A DNA stretch of 64,000 nucleotides, from the NCBI GenBank assembly GCA_921293015.1, contig OV121087.1, positions 3,794,501-3,858,500 on the forward strand. Direction: 5' to 3'. Position numbers and translations under genes: made by a program. The stretch comes from Phorcus lineatus. Lineage: Eukaryota > Mollusca > Gastropoda > Trochida > Trochidae. This document shows, in pieces, positions 4,866 through 48,353 of the stretch (the first letter of the stretch is position 1; every line of letters begins with the position of its first letter). A model generated the notes under the pieces. That model was not told the DNA's origin, searched no databases, and saw only the letters and a program-made list of their open reading frames with translations.

Positions 4866-5561
4866 ATGTCTGTAAGAGCGAGACGAGCAACCATCAGTGT
4901 ACTCGGACTGCACGTGCCCACGGGACTCAGACTCTGTCTTCACCTGGCTCTGGTCTGTTCACTGCTCCTCGTACTCTCCAACGATGTCGAGTCGAACCCG
5001 GTACCACGAAGACAAACTACACTTGAAGGTGATGTTTGTGAATCCGAAATGTTAAAAGAAATTAGAGATATGAGAAGAGAAACAAAATCTAATTTTGAGA
5101 AAATTTTCGGCCAAATAACTCAACTTGAACATGACGTTGATAAACTCACAGAAGAAAATAAAGAACTGAAAACTACTGTGAAACGCTTAACAAACAAAAT
5201 TGAATATCTAGACAATACCTCAAGACAAAACAACATCATAATGTACAACATCGATGAGACACCAGGCGAGAAGAACGATGACTTCACAGAGAAAGTACTA
5301 CACGTAATCAAGAATAATATGAATATCACGGATATAGAAGAGTTTGACCGCGTTGTTTGCCTTCCGTCGAAAACACGTGGTGCGAGACCAGTGTTAGTCA
5401 GCTGTCTCAACTACAGACGCAGGACCAGGATCTTACAGTCGGCCAAACTCCTTAAAGGACAAGGTATTTCTATTTCACAGGATTTCTCAGAAAAAGTGCG
5501 ATCTGTTAGACAGAAACTAAAGGGATTCATGACAAAGGCCAGGAGTGAAGGTAAATTATAA
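4866..5561 (+). CDS. LINE ORF1 protein with signal/2A leader and coiled coil
   Basis: 231 residues. Residues 21-38 (LRLCLHLALVCSLLLVLS) form a hydrophobic signal-like segment running straight into NDVESNPVPRR. DVESNPVP (residues 40-47, bases 4983-5006) is the 2A consensus DxExNPGP with Val for Gly (GTA at 5001-5003). 2A peptides make the ribosome skip the final Gly-Pro bond; the change should abolish that here. Residues about 59-125 are a heptad-rich coiled coil. From NIIMYNI (about 130) to RPVLVSC and ILQSAKLLKGQGISISQDFS lies a part resembling the RRM and C-terminal domains of L1 ORF1p, an RNA-binding chaperone. The usual tail seems to continue in another frame after the stop (LQIENKLFRLND..., about 5567-5659), so a single-base frameshift has probably removed about 35 codons. 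Confidence 0.78.
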   Translation: MSVRARRATISVLGLHVPTGLRLCLHLALVCSLLLVLSNDVESNPVPRRQTTLEGDVCESEMLKEIRDMRRETKSNFEKIFGQITQLEHDVDKLTEENKELKTTVKRLTNKIEYLDNTSRQNNIIMYNIDETPGEKNDDFTEKVLHVIKNNMNITDIEEFDRVVCLPSKTRGARPVLVSCLNYRRRTRILQSAKLLKGQGISISQDFSEKVRSVRQKLKGFMTKARSEGKL

Positions 5562-5688
5562 ACTCCAAATCGAAAACAAACTGTTTAGGCTTAACGATAC
5601 TGAGAATAATTTAGTTTTGTTAAAAACATTTCCTGCGCGATCTTCAGGAACTGTCTCCAACAGATAGGGGCGTGGCCAAGGCCCGCAT

Positions 5689-8600
5689 GTGATGGATACA
5701 CCATTGACTGCTGTTCTGTGGAATGTAGAAGGTCTAAAGAATAAAATTTGTAAGGAACATATCGCTAACGTTTTGAAGAAATTCACCTTTATATCTCTTG
5801 TTGAAACATGGTCGGATGAAGATGAGGAGCTTACCTTTCATGGATATACTGTGTTTAGAAAATGTAGACAAAAACATGTTAATGCCCTTAGGAATTCCGG
5901 CGGAATAATTGTGTTAATCTCTGACAATATATCCAAATATGTGTCATCAATACCAACTGTTAGTAACAACATATTATGGTTACGTGCGCGTACCTCATCA
6001 TTATTAAACACTTTTCATCGGTGTTGTTTACTATTCTCCTGCAAGTTCAAGCGCTCATGCTGATGAACCTATTTTAACTATTTTGGAAAATGATGTTACA
6101 AAATTTAGATCAGATGATCCAGACTGTCGAATAATACTTCAAGGTGACTTTAATGCACGTACCGGGGACGGGCGTTTTACTGATTATATTGTAAATGATG
6201 ACCCAAAGTATCTTCCGATTGATGATGACCTACATTATGTTACTGACGACGACATCGAACCACGTGCGTCACGTGACCCTATCATCAACAAACGAGGTTA
6301 CGCTTTATTGAACTTTTGCAAGACATTAGACCTGAGAATATGTAACGGCCGTTTATTTCAAGACAAAGGAAACGGAAACATAACATGTTTTGCTAATAAT
6401 GGTCAAAGTATTGTCGACTATGTAATTTGTTCAGACAATTCTTATGAATTGTTTGACGACTTCAAGGTGTCAACGACAGTAGAGTCGACACATCTTCCAA
6501 TAACTTATTCTTTGTCATTGTCGACAGGATATTTAGAACATTTCCATAATATTCTTACACCTAAAATTAAATACCATTGGAACAAGGACTGTTTAGTAGA
6601 ATATCTTCATAACTGGGGTGTTTTACCAGCAGAGGTTGTGAATAATTTTAACTCCTCTATTGATAAAGGTGATATTCAAGAAGCTTCGTCAACATTCGAT
6701 ACCATTATACATTCCTGTGCTAGCTTTTGTAAATCTAACATACTGCTATCAAGTCATGTTCCAAAGGGAGACAACTGGTATGATAAAGAATGTAAAAGTG
6801 CACGTGATACCGCCAGACGCCGTCTGCGTGCATTCCAAGCAAGTAACAGCAAATGTGATAGACAACAGTACGTGGAGTCTCTGTCTCTATATAAACACTT
6901 GTGTGCAGCAAAACTTGCCTCGTCATTTACAGATTTCACTAATAAACTGACAAATGCACTTTCTTCTAAAGACAGTAGGATGTTCTGGAAAACGGTGAAA
7001 CCAAAATCATCGTCTGATTGGATGAATCACTTTAAGAATGTATTTCAAACTTCTTGTTTTTCAGATCATGATGAACGCTTTTATACATATGTCAGAAACT
7101 TTGTTGACTCGATCAGCGATAAACTTATTGATTCATCTGTGGATAATGACTATCTTGACAAAGAAATATCCTACCAAGAAATAGTTAACGCCATCCATGA
7201 AATGCATAATGGTAAGGCACCAGGACTCAGTGGCATCCCAATTGAAGTTTTTAAAAATGCCCCTCATCATTGTATTGTTTTACTAAAATCCTTATTCAAT
7301 GGCATCTACGGGTATCTATCCATCTGAGTGGACTTATGGAGTTATAATTCCTTTGTATAAGAAAGGTAAAACTGATTGCCCTGGGAATTATAGACCTATA
7401 ACACTGCTTGAGGTAACTGGAAAAATATTTTGTAAAATTATGAACAACAGGCTAAACATTTGGGCAGAAAGAGAAGACTTTTTTGTCGATGAACTAGCTG
7501 GGTTCAGACATGGATTCCAAACTCATGATAATATCTTCGTTCTTGATACTATTATCTGTAAATATCTTTCACTTTACAAGGGTCGTCTCTATTGTGCATT
7601 TATTGATTTGAAAGCTGCTTTTGACTCGGTCGACAGGTATAGTCTCTTTTATAAACTTTGGCTTGGCAATGTGAAGGGAAATACCTACAGACTATTGAAA
7701 AACATGTATCAGAATGTTAAAGCCTGTGTATCTATGAGAGAAGGTTACACGCCATTTTTCGATTGTTTATCTGGGGTTCGCCAGGGTTGCCAGTTGTCTC
7801 CCTTTCTCTTTTCCTTCTTTGTAAATGATATTGTGGAAAGTTTGTCAGCTGATGGCCAAAGAGGTATCAATCTAGACTTAATGGAGCTTTTCATCTTATT
7901 ATTTGCTGATGATATTGCAATTTTTGATTTTACAGTTAGAGGTCTACAAAAGAGGCTTGATAAGTTAGTTTCTTATTGTGACAAATGGAGACTGAATATT
8001 AATATTGAGAAAAGTAAAGTTATCGTCTTTAGAAAGGCTGGTCGACTTAGACATTATAAAACTTTCCGTTTGAATGGTGAAGTGATTGAAATTGTTCCAT
8101 CTTATAAATACTTGGGTGTCCATTTTTCTTCCTCTGGATCATGGTATATAACACAGAAAACTTTGGCTGAACAGGCAATGAAAGTATTAAATATCCTTAA
8201 ATCATCGGTAAGGAATTTTTATAGTCTTCCGATAAAGGTTCTGCTCCATATATTTGACGTCAAAGTTCTGCCATTGCTACTTTATGGAAGTGAGATCTGG
8301 GGCTTTCATCAATCGCCATCTGTGTTGAATGTGCATGAAAGGTTCTGTAAACAGATTTTAGGTCTTTCTAGAAATACGCCGAACATCGCGGCGCTTGCTG
8401 AACTTGGTCGCTATTCATTAAAGGTAAATCAGTATGTCAAAATCATTAAATATTGGGTTCGACTTTTGTCTCAAACTGAAAACACAATATTAAAAAAGGT
8501 GTATAATTATCAGTATGGTCTGGCTGAAAAGGGTTTAGATTGTTGGGCTTTTAAAGTGAAATCACTTTTGTCTACTTACGGGTTTGGTAATGTGTGGCAA

Positions 8601-9116
8601 AATCAACGTATCGGAAACATTTCGACGTTTGTAGAATTGTTCAAGCAACGATGTATAGACATAGACAATCAGTTATTCTCATCGGACATTAATTTGGTCT
8701 CAAAACTGGATTTTTATCGTAGGGTAAAAACATTTATAGAGTTTGAGTTTTATATTAGTAGTGTCAGTGTGAGACAGTTTCGTATTTTTCTTAGTAGGTT
8801 TCGCTGCTCTAATCACAATTTGATGATAGAATACGGAAGATATATAGGTCTTAAAAGGGACGATCGCCTTTGCCCGCTCTGTATTATACCTTATATTGAA
8901 AACGAATACCATTTTTGTTTAGTATGCCCTTTTTATAAGAAATTAAGAAATGATATTCTTCCAGAATATTTCAATACATATCCTTCAGAATTAAAGCTAG
9001 CCCAAATATTTACATCAAAGAATATTCTTGTTATCAACTGCCTCGCAAAATACTTATTTCTTGCTATGAAAAAAAGAAATAGATTTCTGTCAATTGTTAC
9101 AACAAAAACTATCTAA
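5689..9116 (+). pseudogene. LINE ORF2: APE endonuclease + reverse transcriptase
   Basis: Reading from MDTPLTAVLWNVEGLKNK, the N-terminal third is an apurinic-type endonuclease: WNVEGL at the start, VETWSD, then FIGVVYYSPA and LQGDFNARTGD (6139-6171). The reverse transcriptase follows: NYRPITLLEV, FIDLKAAFDSV (motif A), GVRQGCQLSPFLFSFF (motif B), FADDIAIF (motif C), KYLGVHF and LLYGSEIWGF. The C-terminus carries LCPLC...EYHFCLVC, a CCHC-like knuckle. Two frameshifts, one near 5995-6015 and one near 7300-7325, split it into three frames; otherwise the length (about 1140 codons) is normal. It would nick target DNA and prime cDNA synthesis. The second LINE at 21.7-23.4 kb is clearly related. Confidence 0.88.
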
Positions 9117-21671: not shown

Positions 21672-23440
21672 ATGTAATAATAACTTTATTTCCATACTGA
21701 GAGGCCACAGGCCTGTAGTACATAGTACATAGTTATACATTTACAGGTAGTAACACATTCTTTCTAAACATAAACGCTTTGTGTATATAAATGGACAAAT
21801 TTTCTAAATGTGATTTACTTTGGTTATTCATAAGAGATATAAACTTATTAATATCAGGGTGCTTATAAAAATATTTCTTTATGTACATAATTCTTAAAGA
21901 ATTGTATGCTGGGCAAACACATAAAAAATGATATTCATCCTCGACTTTATTTAGATCACACATTTGGCATATTCTGTTTTCTCTTAAGATTCCTTGGTAT
22001 CTCCCAGTTTCAATATATAAATCATGAGAAGAGCAGCGTAATCTTGCTAGTGAAGATTTGTATTTTCTTATCGTTAAGACCGAAAGGTAATGTTCTGAAT
22101 AGATAGAATCTTTAATCATTTTGTAGTAGAAACATTTGTTAGATAGTGACAGACTAGCTGACCAGTTTTGTAGGAATATATCTTTAAGTCTTTGTTTAAC
22201 TAGGCAAATAAAACGGGAGTGCGATTCTACGAATTGTTTATGCCAAGCATTACCGAAGCCGATAGAAAATAATAATTGTTTAGTGTGTGTTACCCAGTTA
22301 TGTTTACTGTGGCTATCATATAGTAACATCATGTTGTAACATTTTCTTGGTAATCTGTATGACGGCATTGTTAACAGTCTTAATCAGTACCTTATGATTT
22401 TAATGTTTGATTCGATATATAATGGGTATCTCCCACATTCTCCATAAACCATACAATTAGATGTGGCGGTTTTTACACCTAGAAATCTCTTACAAGCATA
22501 CAAATGAACTTTTTCTAAAACATCAAATGATTTAAAGCCCCAGACTTCTGCACCATATAACAATATTGGGGTTATTTTTGTGTCAAAAATTTTGAAAAAC
22601 GAATTGTAAGACAAGATACCCAAAATATTTATGTATTTAATGATACCTATCAATATTTTCTTTGCTTGCATAGATGCCTGTGATATGTGTATTGACCAAG
22701 AAAGATGATTCGTAAAATGTACACCTAAGTATTTATATGAGGTTGTTGTCTCAAATCTATTTCCTTTATAGAACCATTTTTCGTTACTAGCTAACTTCCC
22801 TCCATTTTTGAAAACAATTATTTTCGTTTTAGTCTGGTTAACACTCAGTTTCCAATTATCACAGTACCTCTCTAATTCATCTATCTCTTTTTGTAACCCT
22901 TTAATTGTACTTGAAAACAAAATAATATCATCAGCAAATAATAGCAAAAATATTTGTATTATATCAGGATGTAGTTGTATACCGTTTGAACAGTTTTCTT
23001 GGATTTGGGTTGCTAATTCATTTATGAAGAATGTAAATAGGAAAGGGCTTAATATGCAACCTTGTCTCACTCCTAACTGACTCAAGAAGGGGTCTGATAA
23101 TTCGTGGTTACTTCTTATACAGATTTTAACATTTTCGTAAATACTTCGCAGTAATTTTCCCATCTTACAACTGACGCCTTGTTCATCCAGGAGATTCCAT
23201 AATTTGCTTCTATTAACTGAATCAAACGCCTTGGAAAAATCTACAAATAAAACATATAACTTCTGTCCCTTATGATTTAAGTATTTTTGGATTATAGAAT
23301 GTAAAACAAATATGTTATCAATAGTGCTATATCCTTTCCTAAAACCAGCCTGCGATTCTGTTATTTTGTCTAGGGAATCTGCCCATTCGACTAATCTCTT
23401 ATTTATAATGAAATGATGTAACAAGAGATGCATATGGCAA
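21672..23440 (-). mobile_element. 5'-truncated LINE, CR1/L2 group (second family)
   Basis: The copy runs leftward and keeps the reverse transcriptase, the C-terminal domain and a 3' tail. On the minus strand it ends GGCCTGTGGCC, AATAAAG, then a TTATTA repeat (21672-21710). About 1.77 kb remains; the endonuclease and ORF1 are absent, as expected from aborted reverse transcription. Confidence 0.82.
21733..23433 (-). pseudogene. LINE reverse transcriptase, C-terminal half
   Basis: The minus-strand frame 23433-22384 contains ITESQAGFRKGYSTIDNIFV, FVDFSKAFDSV (motif A), GVRQGCILSPFLFTFFIN (motif B), FADDIILF (motif C), KYLGVHF and LLYGAEVWGF. Frame 22368-21733 continues with SIGFGNAW, CQMC...DEYHFLCVC (zinc-knuckle-like) and the C-terminus. 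One frame change near 22370-22384 separates them; otherwise it is remarkably open. It is about 40 percent alike by eye to the ORF2 at 5689-9116, so a different family of the same clade. Confidence 0.85.
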
Positions 23441-46578: not shown

Positions 46579-46691
46579 GTAAGTGGAACTAATCATTATG
46601 TCAAGGTAGAACTTCGGAAATATTCCAAATTTGTAAAACTTGCATTGTATACAGAGTAACAAGTGTTTACTATCTTATACAGTCACGTTTC

Positions 46692-47623
46692 TATGGAAGC
46701 GCATTACTGCCAGCTGTGAGAAAAATTGACAAAAGTTCTAATTAGATGATAGTTTCATCTAATTAGAAGATGATAGTTTAATCTAATTAGAAGATGATAG
46801 TATCATCTAATTAGAAGATGATAGTTTCATCTAATTAGATGATAGTTTTAACCAATAAGATGACAGTTTTATCTAATTAGATATAACTTTCATCTAATTA
46901 GACATTAGTTTCTTCATTGTATTCAAAATCTAATTTAGATGATATTTTGATCTAATTAGATGATATTTTAATCTAATTAGATGATATTTTCATCTAATTA
47001 GATGATACATTAATCTAATCAGATCATACTTTCATCTAATTAGTTAATATTTTCATCTAATTAGATGATCCTTTCATCTAATTAGATGATACATTAATCT
47101 AATTAGATGATACTTTGAAAGTATGATCTAATTAGATAATACTATGATCTAATTAGATGAAACTATGATCTAATTAGATGAAATATCATCTAATTACATC
47201 AAACAATCATCTAATTATTTGACACTATCATCTTATTAGATGAAACCATGATCTAATTAGTTGAAATATCATCTAATTACATCAAACAATCATCTAATTA
47301 GTTGAAACTATCATCTAATTAGATGAAACAATCATCTTATTAGTTGAAACTATCATCTAATTAGATGAAACAATCATCTAATTAGTTGAAATATCATCTA
47401 ATTACATCAAACAATCATCTAATTAGTTGAAACTATCATCTAATTAGATGAAACAATCATCTTATTAGTTGAAACTATCATCTAATTAGATTAAACAATG
47501 ATCTTATTAGATGAAATATCATCTAATTACATCAAACAATCATCGAATTAGTTGAAACTTTCATCTAATTAGATGAAAATATCATCTAATTTTTCTCACT
47601 GCTAGCAGCAATGCGCTTCCATA
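46692..47623. mobile_element. Inverted-repeat element filled with palindromic TAATTA satellite
   Basis: The termini match over 36 bases with three mismatches: left TATGGAAGCGCATTACTGCC..., right reversed TATGGAAGCGCATTGCTGCT..., both ending GTGAGAAAAATT. CGTTTC flanks both sides (46686-46691, 47624-47629), a 6-base target duplication. The interior (about 46738-47590) is a satellite of roughly 21-22-base units built on TCATCTAATTAGATGA. The spacer reads GATAGTTTC-like in the left half and GAAACTATC-like in the right half, so polarity flips near 47117 at TACTTTGAAAGTA. The whole 932 bases could fold into one long hairpin. No coding capacity. The superfamily is not established. Confidence 0.8.
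46738..47590. repeat. Satellite of near-palindromic CTAATTAG units
   Basis: About three dozen CTAATTA cores counted by eye, spaced about 21-22 bases. Some units vary (CTTATTAG, CTAATTACATC, CGAATTAG). CTAATTAG is a palindrome containing the TAATTA core that many homeodomain proteins bind. A higher-order unit of several monomers (ending CATCAAACAATCATC) recurs at about 47195, 47278, 47402 and 47526, showing recent unequal exchange in the right half. Confidence 0.85.
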
Positions 47624-48353
47624 CGTTTCATATCGAATCATTCAACGTTGTACCTGCAAAAATAATCGTTACAAATTAAAAGATTTCCTCTTGATTCGAC
47701 TTTTAAAATCGCTGTTTTGAAGACGGAGAGCACTTTATACCATGTCATTCGTGAAGTTTGGAATCAAATAAGAATATTTGTACTGGCGATAATAATGAAA
47801 TAATGTAAACAGTATTGATTAACAAGGTCGTAAAAAACGAGAGTTATTAGGCCGATTGAAAAAGGTTTAACGAAATAATGTAAAGCTTGGACGGTATGAA
47901 ATGTTAAACAAACAATCAACCAGGAACTAAAGCACACAGTTGATAAGTATGTCCATATGGGAGTTAATAACATCAGTTTTGTTTTAGTTCATCACAACAA
48001 TCACATTGGATCAAACAAATTAATCTCTTAAGCAATCGTGTTTGAGATTGATGCGTCTAGTATTAGATCCTGTGTTCCTACAACACTAACTTACATTGTT
48101 AATGGCTACTGCTAACAGTCTTTGATGATTATCCACATCCCATCTCATTGTTTTCAAAGTTAAGTGCTGTGTGAGATGTAAATTGTAGCTGGTTATCATC
48201 GCCTCCCTACCATACATACTGTAAAGTTCCGGCTTTTAGCTTCAGCTATTTCTATACCTTATACCAATATATTTGTTTTTAACGAAAGTGGTACTATTGA
48301 TAGTCTTGAACAACAAAGATGTTGTCGTATATATCCGATTTCCTAATTGTCAT
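47624..48353. other. Spacer, nothing recognised
   Basis: No gene, repeat or structured element is recognised apart from the target-duplication copy at its left edge. Confidence 0.4.

Follow-up and report, generated by a model that had tools for sequence, protein, structure and literature searches.

A gene-less foldback transposon of the IS3EU superfamily in Phorcus lineatus, with palindrome arrays at a 21-base pitch as putative docking sites

The 932-base element at positions 46692-47623 of the window, that is, of the whole stretch of 64,000 nucleotides of Phorcus lineatus DNA analysed here, is almost certainly a gene-less, non-autonomous foldback DNA transposon of the IS3EU superfamily, belonging to a family that we call F1. 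In both of its arms a 12-base palindrome alternates in tandem with a 9-base spacer, and related families in the same genome carry other palindromes in the same rhythm. The explanation that we favour as a whole, an IS3EU foldback whose arrays would serve as docking sites and whose address would be exchanged between families, appears to us likely, and its parts are graded separately below.

The element opens with a terminal inverted repeat, TATGGAAGCGCATT... (46692-46727, forward strand), and closes with its counterpart on the reverse strand (47588-47623, ending in CCATA); alignment of the first and last 36 bases gave three mismatches. It is flanked on both sides by CGTTTC (46686-46691 and 47624-47629), read directly as identical left and right target site duplications. 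Both features had been claimed in a preliminary description of the window and were borne out. Between the termini lie long inverted arms of tandem repeats, which is the architecture of a foldback element. The element contains 26 exact copies of the palindrome CTAATTAG, or 37 when one mismatch is allowed, compared with an average of 1.06, and never more than 5, in 500 single-base shuffles of the element, so that the earlier estimate of about three dozen sites was accurate; the remaining 63,068 bases of the window hold 0 exact copies and 24 with at most one mismatch. With up to two mismatches, TCATCTAATTAGATGA was found 33 times in the element and 0 times elsewhere in the window.

Tandem Repeats Finder assigned a period of 21 to the window array, and the F1 unit consists of the 12-base palindrome ATCTAATTAGAT and a 9-base spacer. 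The sites had been described as palindromes of 14-16 bases; they can be seen as such because the spacer often starts with GA and ends with TC, and the unit is redescribed here as 12 plus 9 bases. In the left arm (46736-47109, forward strand), 11 of the 15 sites that depart from CTAATTAG at no more than one base have GATAGTTTC-like polarity, one is opposite and three are undecided, while 18 of the 22 such sites in the inverted right arm (47125-47587, reverse strand) are GAAACTATC-like and four are undecided. As had been noticed before, the spacer polarity reverses near the middle; direct reading and the list of site polarities place the turn at the odd palindrome ATACTTTGAAAGTAT (47110-47124), the centre of the large palindrome. 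Folded as a single DNA strand, the element forms one hairpin of -251.3 kcal/mol; 20 dinucleotide shuffles average -82.7 kcal/mol (sd 4.6). A fold lying 36 sd beyond the shuffles, here computed as DNA, is what would be expected if the hairpin arms acted as RNA and their long double strands fed or blunted small-RNA silencing, but a long hairpin would need neither 12+9 units nor a constant pitch nor a constraint on half of the unit, and we consider such a role very unlikely.

The terminus is not unique to the window. Across the 958 Mb and 74 contigs of the window's own genome, the sole eukaryote genome covered, the F1 terminus with at most three mismatches occurs 377 times and its reversed-pattern control twice. 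From loci L001-L058 we took 24 distinct two-ended F1 copies with no further forward terminus inside, leaving out loci with one terminus. A perfect 6-base duplication flanks 16 of the 24 and a duplication matching at 5 of 6 bases flanks five more (21/24 at 5 or better); L011 has a perfect 7-base duplication, and L004 and L029 have none. A Tc1/mariner element with a TA duplication, a reading prompted by the ends CTATGG..CCATAC, was rejected because the flanking identity covers 6 bases in most of these copies. Two copies, L003 and L007, occupy the identical position within a dispersed repeat. Joining their flanks gave a query that ran through the junction without interruption in all 40 scored paralogous places (65 candidates), so unoccupied sites exist and the insertion boundary is shown. 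The termini, duplications and uninterrupted sites uphold the earlier claim of a mobile, dispersed element.

The 24 copies hold between 1 and 59 sites, and 535 of the 672 intervals between sites are exactly 21 bases. Long arrays may be unnecessary, since there are short copies with 1-6 sites (100, 141 and 242 bases long; the longest of them lacks a duplication). Other mobile sequences were also seen. The 2,467-base F1 copy L042, whose duplication TGATAG is intact, contains reverse-transcriptase-like reading frames (L042:687-2155, judged by eye), perhaps a nested retroelement. The window itself has LINE-like frames at 4866-9116 (forward strand) and 21733-23433 (reverse strand), with endonuclease-like and reverse-transcriptase-like parts recognised by eye, and the first of these includes a DVESNPV stretch that we take to resemble a 2A peptide.

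The portions available of two descriptions of IS3EU (PMC10045372, PMC12730594) give ends of the form TAYGG..CCRTA or TA..TA, duplications usually of 6 bases, and a DDD/E transposase akin to those of prokaryotic IS481 and IS3. The window element and the F1 copies end in TATGG..CCATA, the 36-base termini of the window copy exceed the 30 bases that mark IS3EU inverted repeats, and the F1 duplications have the expected length. The enzyme was recognised in a sister copy, L057 on contig C9, in which F1 termini and arms surround two genes in opposite orientation over 9,070 bases flanked by GTTACC duplications. Its transposase has an integrase core of the DDD/E kind (Pfam rva_4, E 2.1e-12) with in-frame stops, and its second gene has a HECT domain (Pfam, E 2.3e-9). 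L057 is the sole coding F1 copy found, and its transposase is broken by the stops; open transposase frames are present in two further families, F2 and F3, and the window copy itself has no transposase. Because the termini, the duplications and the enzyme type of L057 fit IS3EU, the window copy is taken as a gene-less foldback member of this superfamily. The assignment is made by description, from the termini, the duplications, the uninterrupted sites and the coding sister copy. The preliminary description had known of no named family like this one; termini, duplication length and transposase type now match IS3EU.

Pfam reported rva_4, rve and HECT in 11 pieces of L057 and of L059, an F2 copy, together with weak sub-threshold HTH_21 and Me-amine-dh_H; a THAP domain was absent from the same 11 pieces. 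Searches with the transposase found no relatives in viral contigs and prokaryote genomes, and no credible match in the PDB (best E 0.12). The next relatives of the F1 transposase piece in the P. lineatus genome are 46-50% identical (five best after itself), F2 being at 47-48%.

In the P. lineatus genome the IS3EU transposase is regularly accompanied by the HECT gene. This gene lies on the reverse strand in both L057 (4901-6893) and L059 (7081-8001). The HECT stretch of F2 matched 16 loci, eight of which are within 15 kb of one of the 15 transposase (rva_4) loci, where about 0.0005 per locus would be expected by chance; since three of the eight are F2 copies, the independent cases are fewer than eight. 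Two gene-bearing F2 copies have identical 307-residue HECT stretches inside 633-residue open frames. The word HECT is absent from the main texts of PMC10045372 and PMC12730594. With a HECT gene next to the transposase, some of the HECT genes that lie scattered through such genomes would be explained as cargo of transposons.

The arms of F1 change faster than their surroundings, and in whole units, because blocks of 21 and 63 bases separate L003 from L007, which also differ at 24 of 974 aligned bases, despite 400-base flanks that are 99.5 and 100% identical. The earlier suggestion of a foldback is supported; between these two copies of a single insertion the array length differs in steps of the unit. 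F1 lengths range from 100 bases up to arrays of 4.3 kb, and the arrays may well grow by slippage. Whether the palindromes form an ordinary satellite with chance ends, in which case arrays should appear without termini, had been proposed as a check in the preliminary description. We examined three long F1 arrays, between 1.7 and 4.3 kb in length. A terminus can be recognised at one end of each; the opposite end has a decayed terminus in one array and no recognisable one in the other two. An ordinary satellite is nevertheless refuted for the window copy by its duplication and for the F1 family by the duplications and uninterrupted sites, and with an F1 terminus at one end of all three long arrays we give this reading practically no weight.

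Other IS3EU families in the genome follow the same plan, namely a 12-base palindrome plus a 9-base GATA-type spacer, 21 bases in all. F2 combines a 324-residue open transposase frame with a convergent HECT gene and carries, at either end, an arm of 21-base period built on the palindrome TTGAAATTTCAA. Its outer terminus, TACGGAAGCCAAATAGGGCC, occurs 26 times in the genome (control 0), and each of the three copies that bear genes and show both termini is flanked by a duplication (CATTTG, GTATAG and, at 7 bases, GGATGAT). F3 again has the palindrome TTGAAATTTCAA, with the terminus TACGGTGGCATATTAGGGCC occurring 371 times (control 0); a gene-less F3 copy of 383 bases is nested in L067 with the duplication ATAAAG, and its unoccupied counterpart is L063. 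The palindrome of F4 is TCGTGGCCACGA, read from 3.5 units, and that of F5 is ACGTACGTACGT, read from a degraded array of 6.7 units. F6, known from one end and with no transposase in view, has the palindrome TCCTAATTAGGA, which contains CTAATTAG, and an IS3EU-like terminus, TACGGAAGCACCCTAGTGCCACA, at 439 sites (control 0). TACGG..CCGTA stands at both ends of F2 and F3, and TACGG at the single end seen of F4 and of F6. The commonest spacers, on either strand, are GATAGTTTC in F1, GATAGTAAG in F2, GATAATAAG in F3, GATATTAAG in F4 and GATAATAAC in F5.

Thirteen stretches upstream of transposase hits, from 12 of the 15 grouped loci, were examined, and eight contain an array, L057 among them, which had been fetched for its F1 termini. 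The other five (L065, L066 and L069-L071, the last three being kin of the F5 stretch) showed no array in the 2.6-2.9 kb upstream of the transposase; either the arms are therefore not universal in the lineage or these copies are broken. Two of the termini also recur in regular series. F3 termini follow one another about every 1.9 kb on one strand at G000:C9:23801398-23810889, as if an F3 copy had been absorbed into a satellite. F6 termini recur every 19.6 kb on contig C17 (G000:C17:47044359, 47063991 and 47083622), which looks like a tandem segmental duplication.

A search blind to palindromes gave the same rhythm. We queried the genome for two copies of GATANTAAS with free bases between them, using the reversed pattern as a control. 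With 12 free bases, corresponding to a pitch of 21, 452 pairs were found (control 9), compared with 30 at a pitch of 20 (11 free bases; control 21) and 15 at a pitch of 22 (13 free bases; control 15). Among 100 of the 452 rows, the free bases formed a perfect palindrome in 53, paired at 5 of 6 positions in 14 and paired at 4 or fewer in 33; pairing at 5 or more positions is expected in 0.8%. The 67 good rows comprise two palindromes only, 40 being TTGAAATTTCAA-like and 27 TCCTAATTAGGA-like. Of the 33 poor rows, 20 belong to a single satellite at C2:13.84 Mb and six to another at C5:16.27 Mb. The former (G000:C2:13844976-13847812) is a 21-base satellite of the GATAGTAAG spacer and the non-palindromic 12-mer TCATACCTATAG. 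A 20-base non-palindromic array of GATATTAAG and TTTACTTTTCA was seen at G000:C11:3187991-3188119 and C15:19290278-19290386; L074 has the near-palindrome TCCYACGTAGGA with no terminus seen, and L075 has no palindrome.

To compare the two parts of the unit, arrays were divided into 21-base units under a single global phase and deviations from the consensus were counted. In F2, deviations affect 6 of 204 palindrome positions and 41 of 153 spacer positions in L059 (p 3e-11), 7 of 192 and 34 of 144 in L060, and 18 of 180 and 41 of 135 in L061. The F2 palindrome keeps its sequence, and the F2 spacer keeps its length more than its sequence, which fits sites for dimers two helical turns apart. The window array left of the centre behaves likewise (2 of 96 versus 12 of 72, p 0.001), while no difference between the two parts was seen in two further short F1 stretches from the window, with p values of 1 and 0.46, and the right arm of L057, cut blindly with its phase broken by indels, gave p 0.16. 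These counts bear on whether the arrays are a by-product of replication, in which slippage is set off by the palindromes and the long inverted arms, and the arrays are bound by nothing. The block differences between L003 and L007 within near-identical flanks and the wide spread of F1 lengths are what such a process would leave. Neutral arrays should drift evenly, however, whereas F2 palindromes vary far less than the spacers, and different families share the 12+9 partition; we regard a mere by-product as improbable.

The arrays are putative docking sites for a protein of the element itself, a reading that the sequence patterns make somewhat likely. The window copy was almost certainly pasted into its target by an integrase-core transposase of IS3EU type supplied in trans, which made the 6-base duplication. 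A dimeric, element-encoded DNA-binding protein would sit on each palindrome, most likely the transposase by way of an N-terminal helix-turn-helix. A step of 21 bases amounts to two helical turns, so that dimers would align on one face of the DNA and could load cooperatively, and the array would give a strong family-specific address and help in pairing the two ends of the element. HTH_21 was reported for the F1 transposase at E 0.004, under the cut-off, and is unlisted for F2. The N-terminal segments, SRRTLKRL in F2, SSRTLKRL in F3 (whose palindrome is that of F2), SRRTLYRV in F1 and SNRHLKRI in F5, agree with the choice of palindrome; with four sequences and a helix placed by eye, this is a lead. 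A precedent is the Galileo transposase, whose THAP domain is reported to have multiple binding sites in the tandem repeats of its long inverted repeats (PMC3688188, abstract).

The palindromes might instead serve host transcription factors as promoter or enhancer sites (homeodomain proteins in the case of CTAATTAG), near the transposase start at one end and upstream of the HECT gene at the other. Many homeodomain proteins bind a TAATTA core. In F1, F2 and F3 the left array either stops no more than about 60 bases from the transposase frame or overlaps it; the right array of F1 and F2 is situated upstream of the HECT frame, which runs on the opposite strand, at a distance of about 1.9 kb in F1; and CTAATTAG is common to F1 and F6. 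Yet one genome holds at least four different palindromes at constant pitch and spacer type, so that several unrelated host factors would need to prefer the same 21-base rhythm, and the arms are kept in gene-less copies. We consider host-factor sites unlikely. The homeodomain array that the preliminary description offered is not supported as the design principle, since the palindromes of F2 to F5 lack TAATTA and TTGAAATTTCAA, TCGTGGCCACGA and ACGTACGTACGT stand in the same rhythm. The resemblance to homeodomain sites is one of motif; in favour of that description, it extends to the F6 palindrome, where TAATTA is present. The overall interpretation in that description is partly supported.

If the arrays are docking sites for the element's own protein, a family may change its address when the palindrome is replaced in every unit while pitch and spacer type stay, a new founder unit spreading by unequal exchange or slippage. 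More tentatively, and with rather less confidence than in the docking sites, we propose that a lineage of IS3EU transposons uses an exchangeable address, in which the 12-base palindrome would name the family, the 9-base spacer would keep the two-turn spacing, and the array would be rewritten when the recognition helix of the transposase changes. Should this be true, at least four palindromes in one genome would let related elements coexist without moving each other's copies, which would bear on the open question of how transposons change specificity and escape cross-mobilisation. A constant frame with a palindrome that varies among families would make protein-DNA co-evolution readable and testable family by family, and the F1 copies provide a natural series of site number at nearly fixed pitch. 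What is new here, and the part worth following, is the exchangeable palindrome at fixed pitch within the known IS3EU superfamily. Neither the array rule nor the HECT partner is described in the literature titles and abstract openings among the matches listed. The oyster satellite CgiSat43 is tabulated with a unit of 21.

Known foldback elements offer further comparisons. The Drosophila FB and sea-urchin TU foldbacks have long inverted arms of short tandem repeats, like F1, whereas their duplication lengths and termini differ. Within IS3EU, as far as the available portions of PMC10045372 and PMC12730594 describe it, the likeness extends from the TAYGG..CCRTA ends, 6-base duplications, inverted repeats of more than 30 bases and the DDD/E integrase-like transposase to a second gene in opposite orientation, which is an alpha-kinase in the fungal TET-carrying families and HECT in F1 and F2; palindrome arms at a 21-base pitch, palindrome exchange and a HECT partner are not part of those portions. 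Tetris, a foldback of Drosophila virilis (PMC4079207, abstract), is likewise non-autonomous, and its internal tandem repeats also form kb-size satellite-like arrays, but these repeats are about 220 bases long, compared with the 12-base palindromes here, and the abstract names no autonomous partner. Galileo, of the P superfamily in Drosophila, has foldback-like long inverted repeats with internal tandem repeats that contain transposase binding sites (PMC3688188, abstract). Its P-type transposase with a THAP domain, as opposed to the integrase core of F1, sets the two in different families, but on this reading their arrays would work alike.
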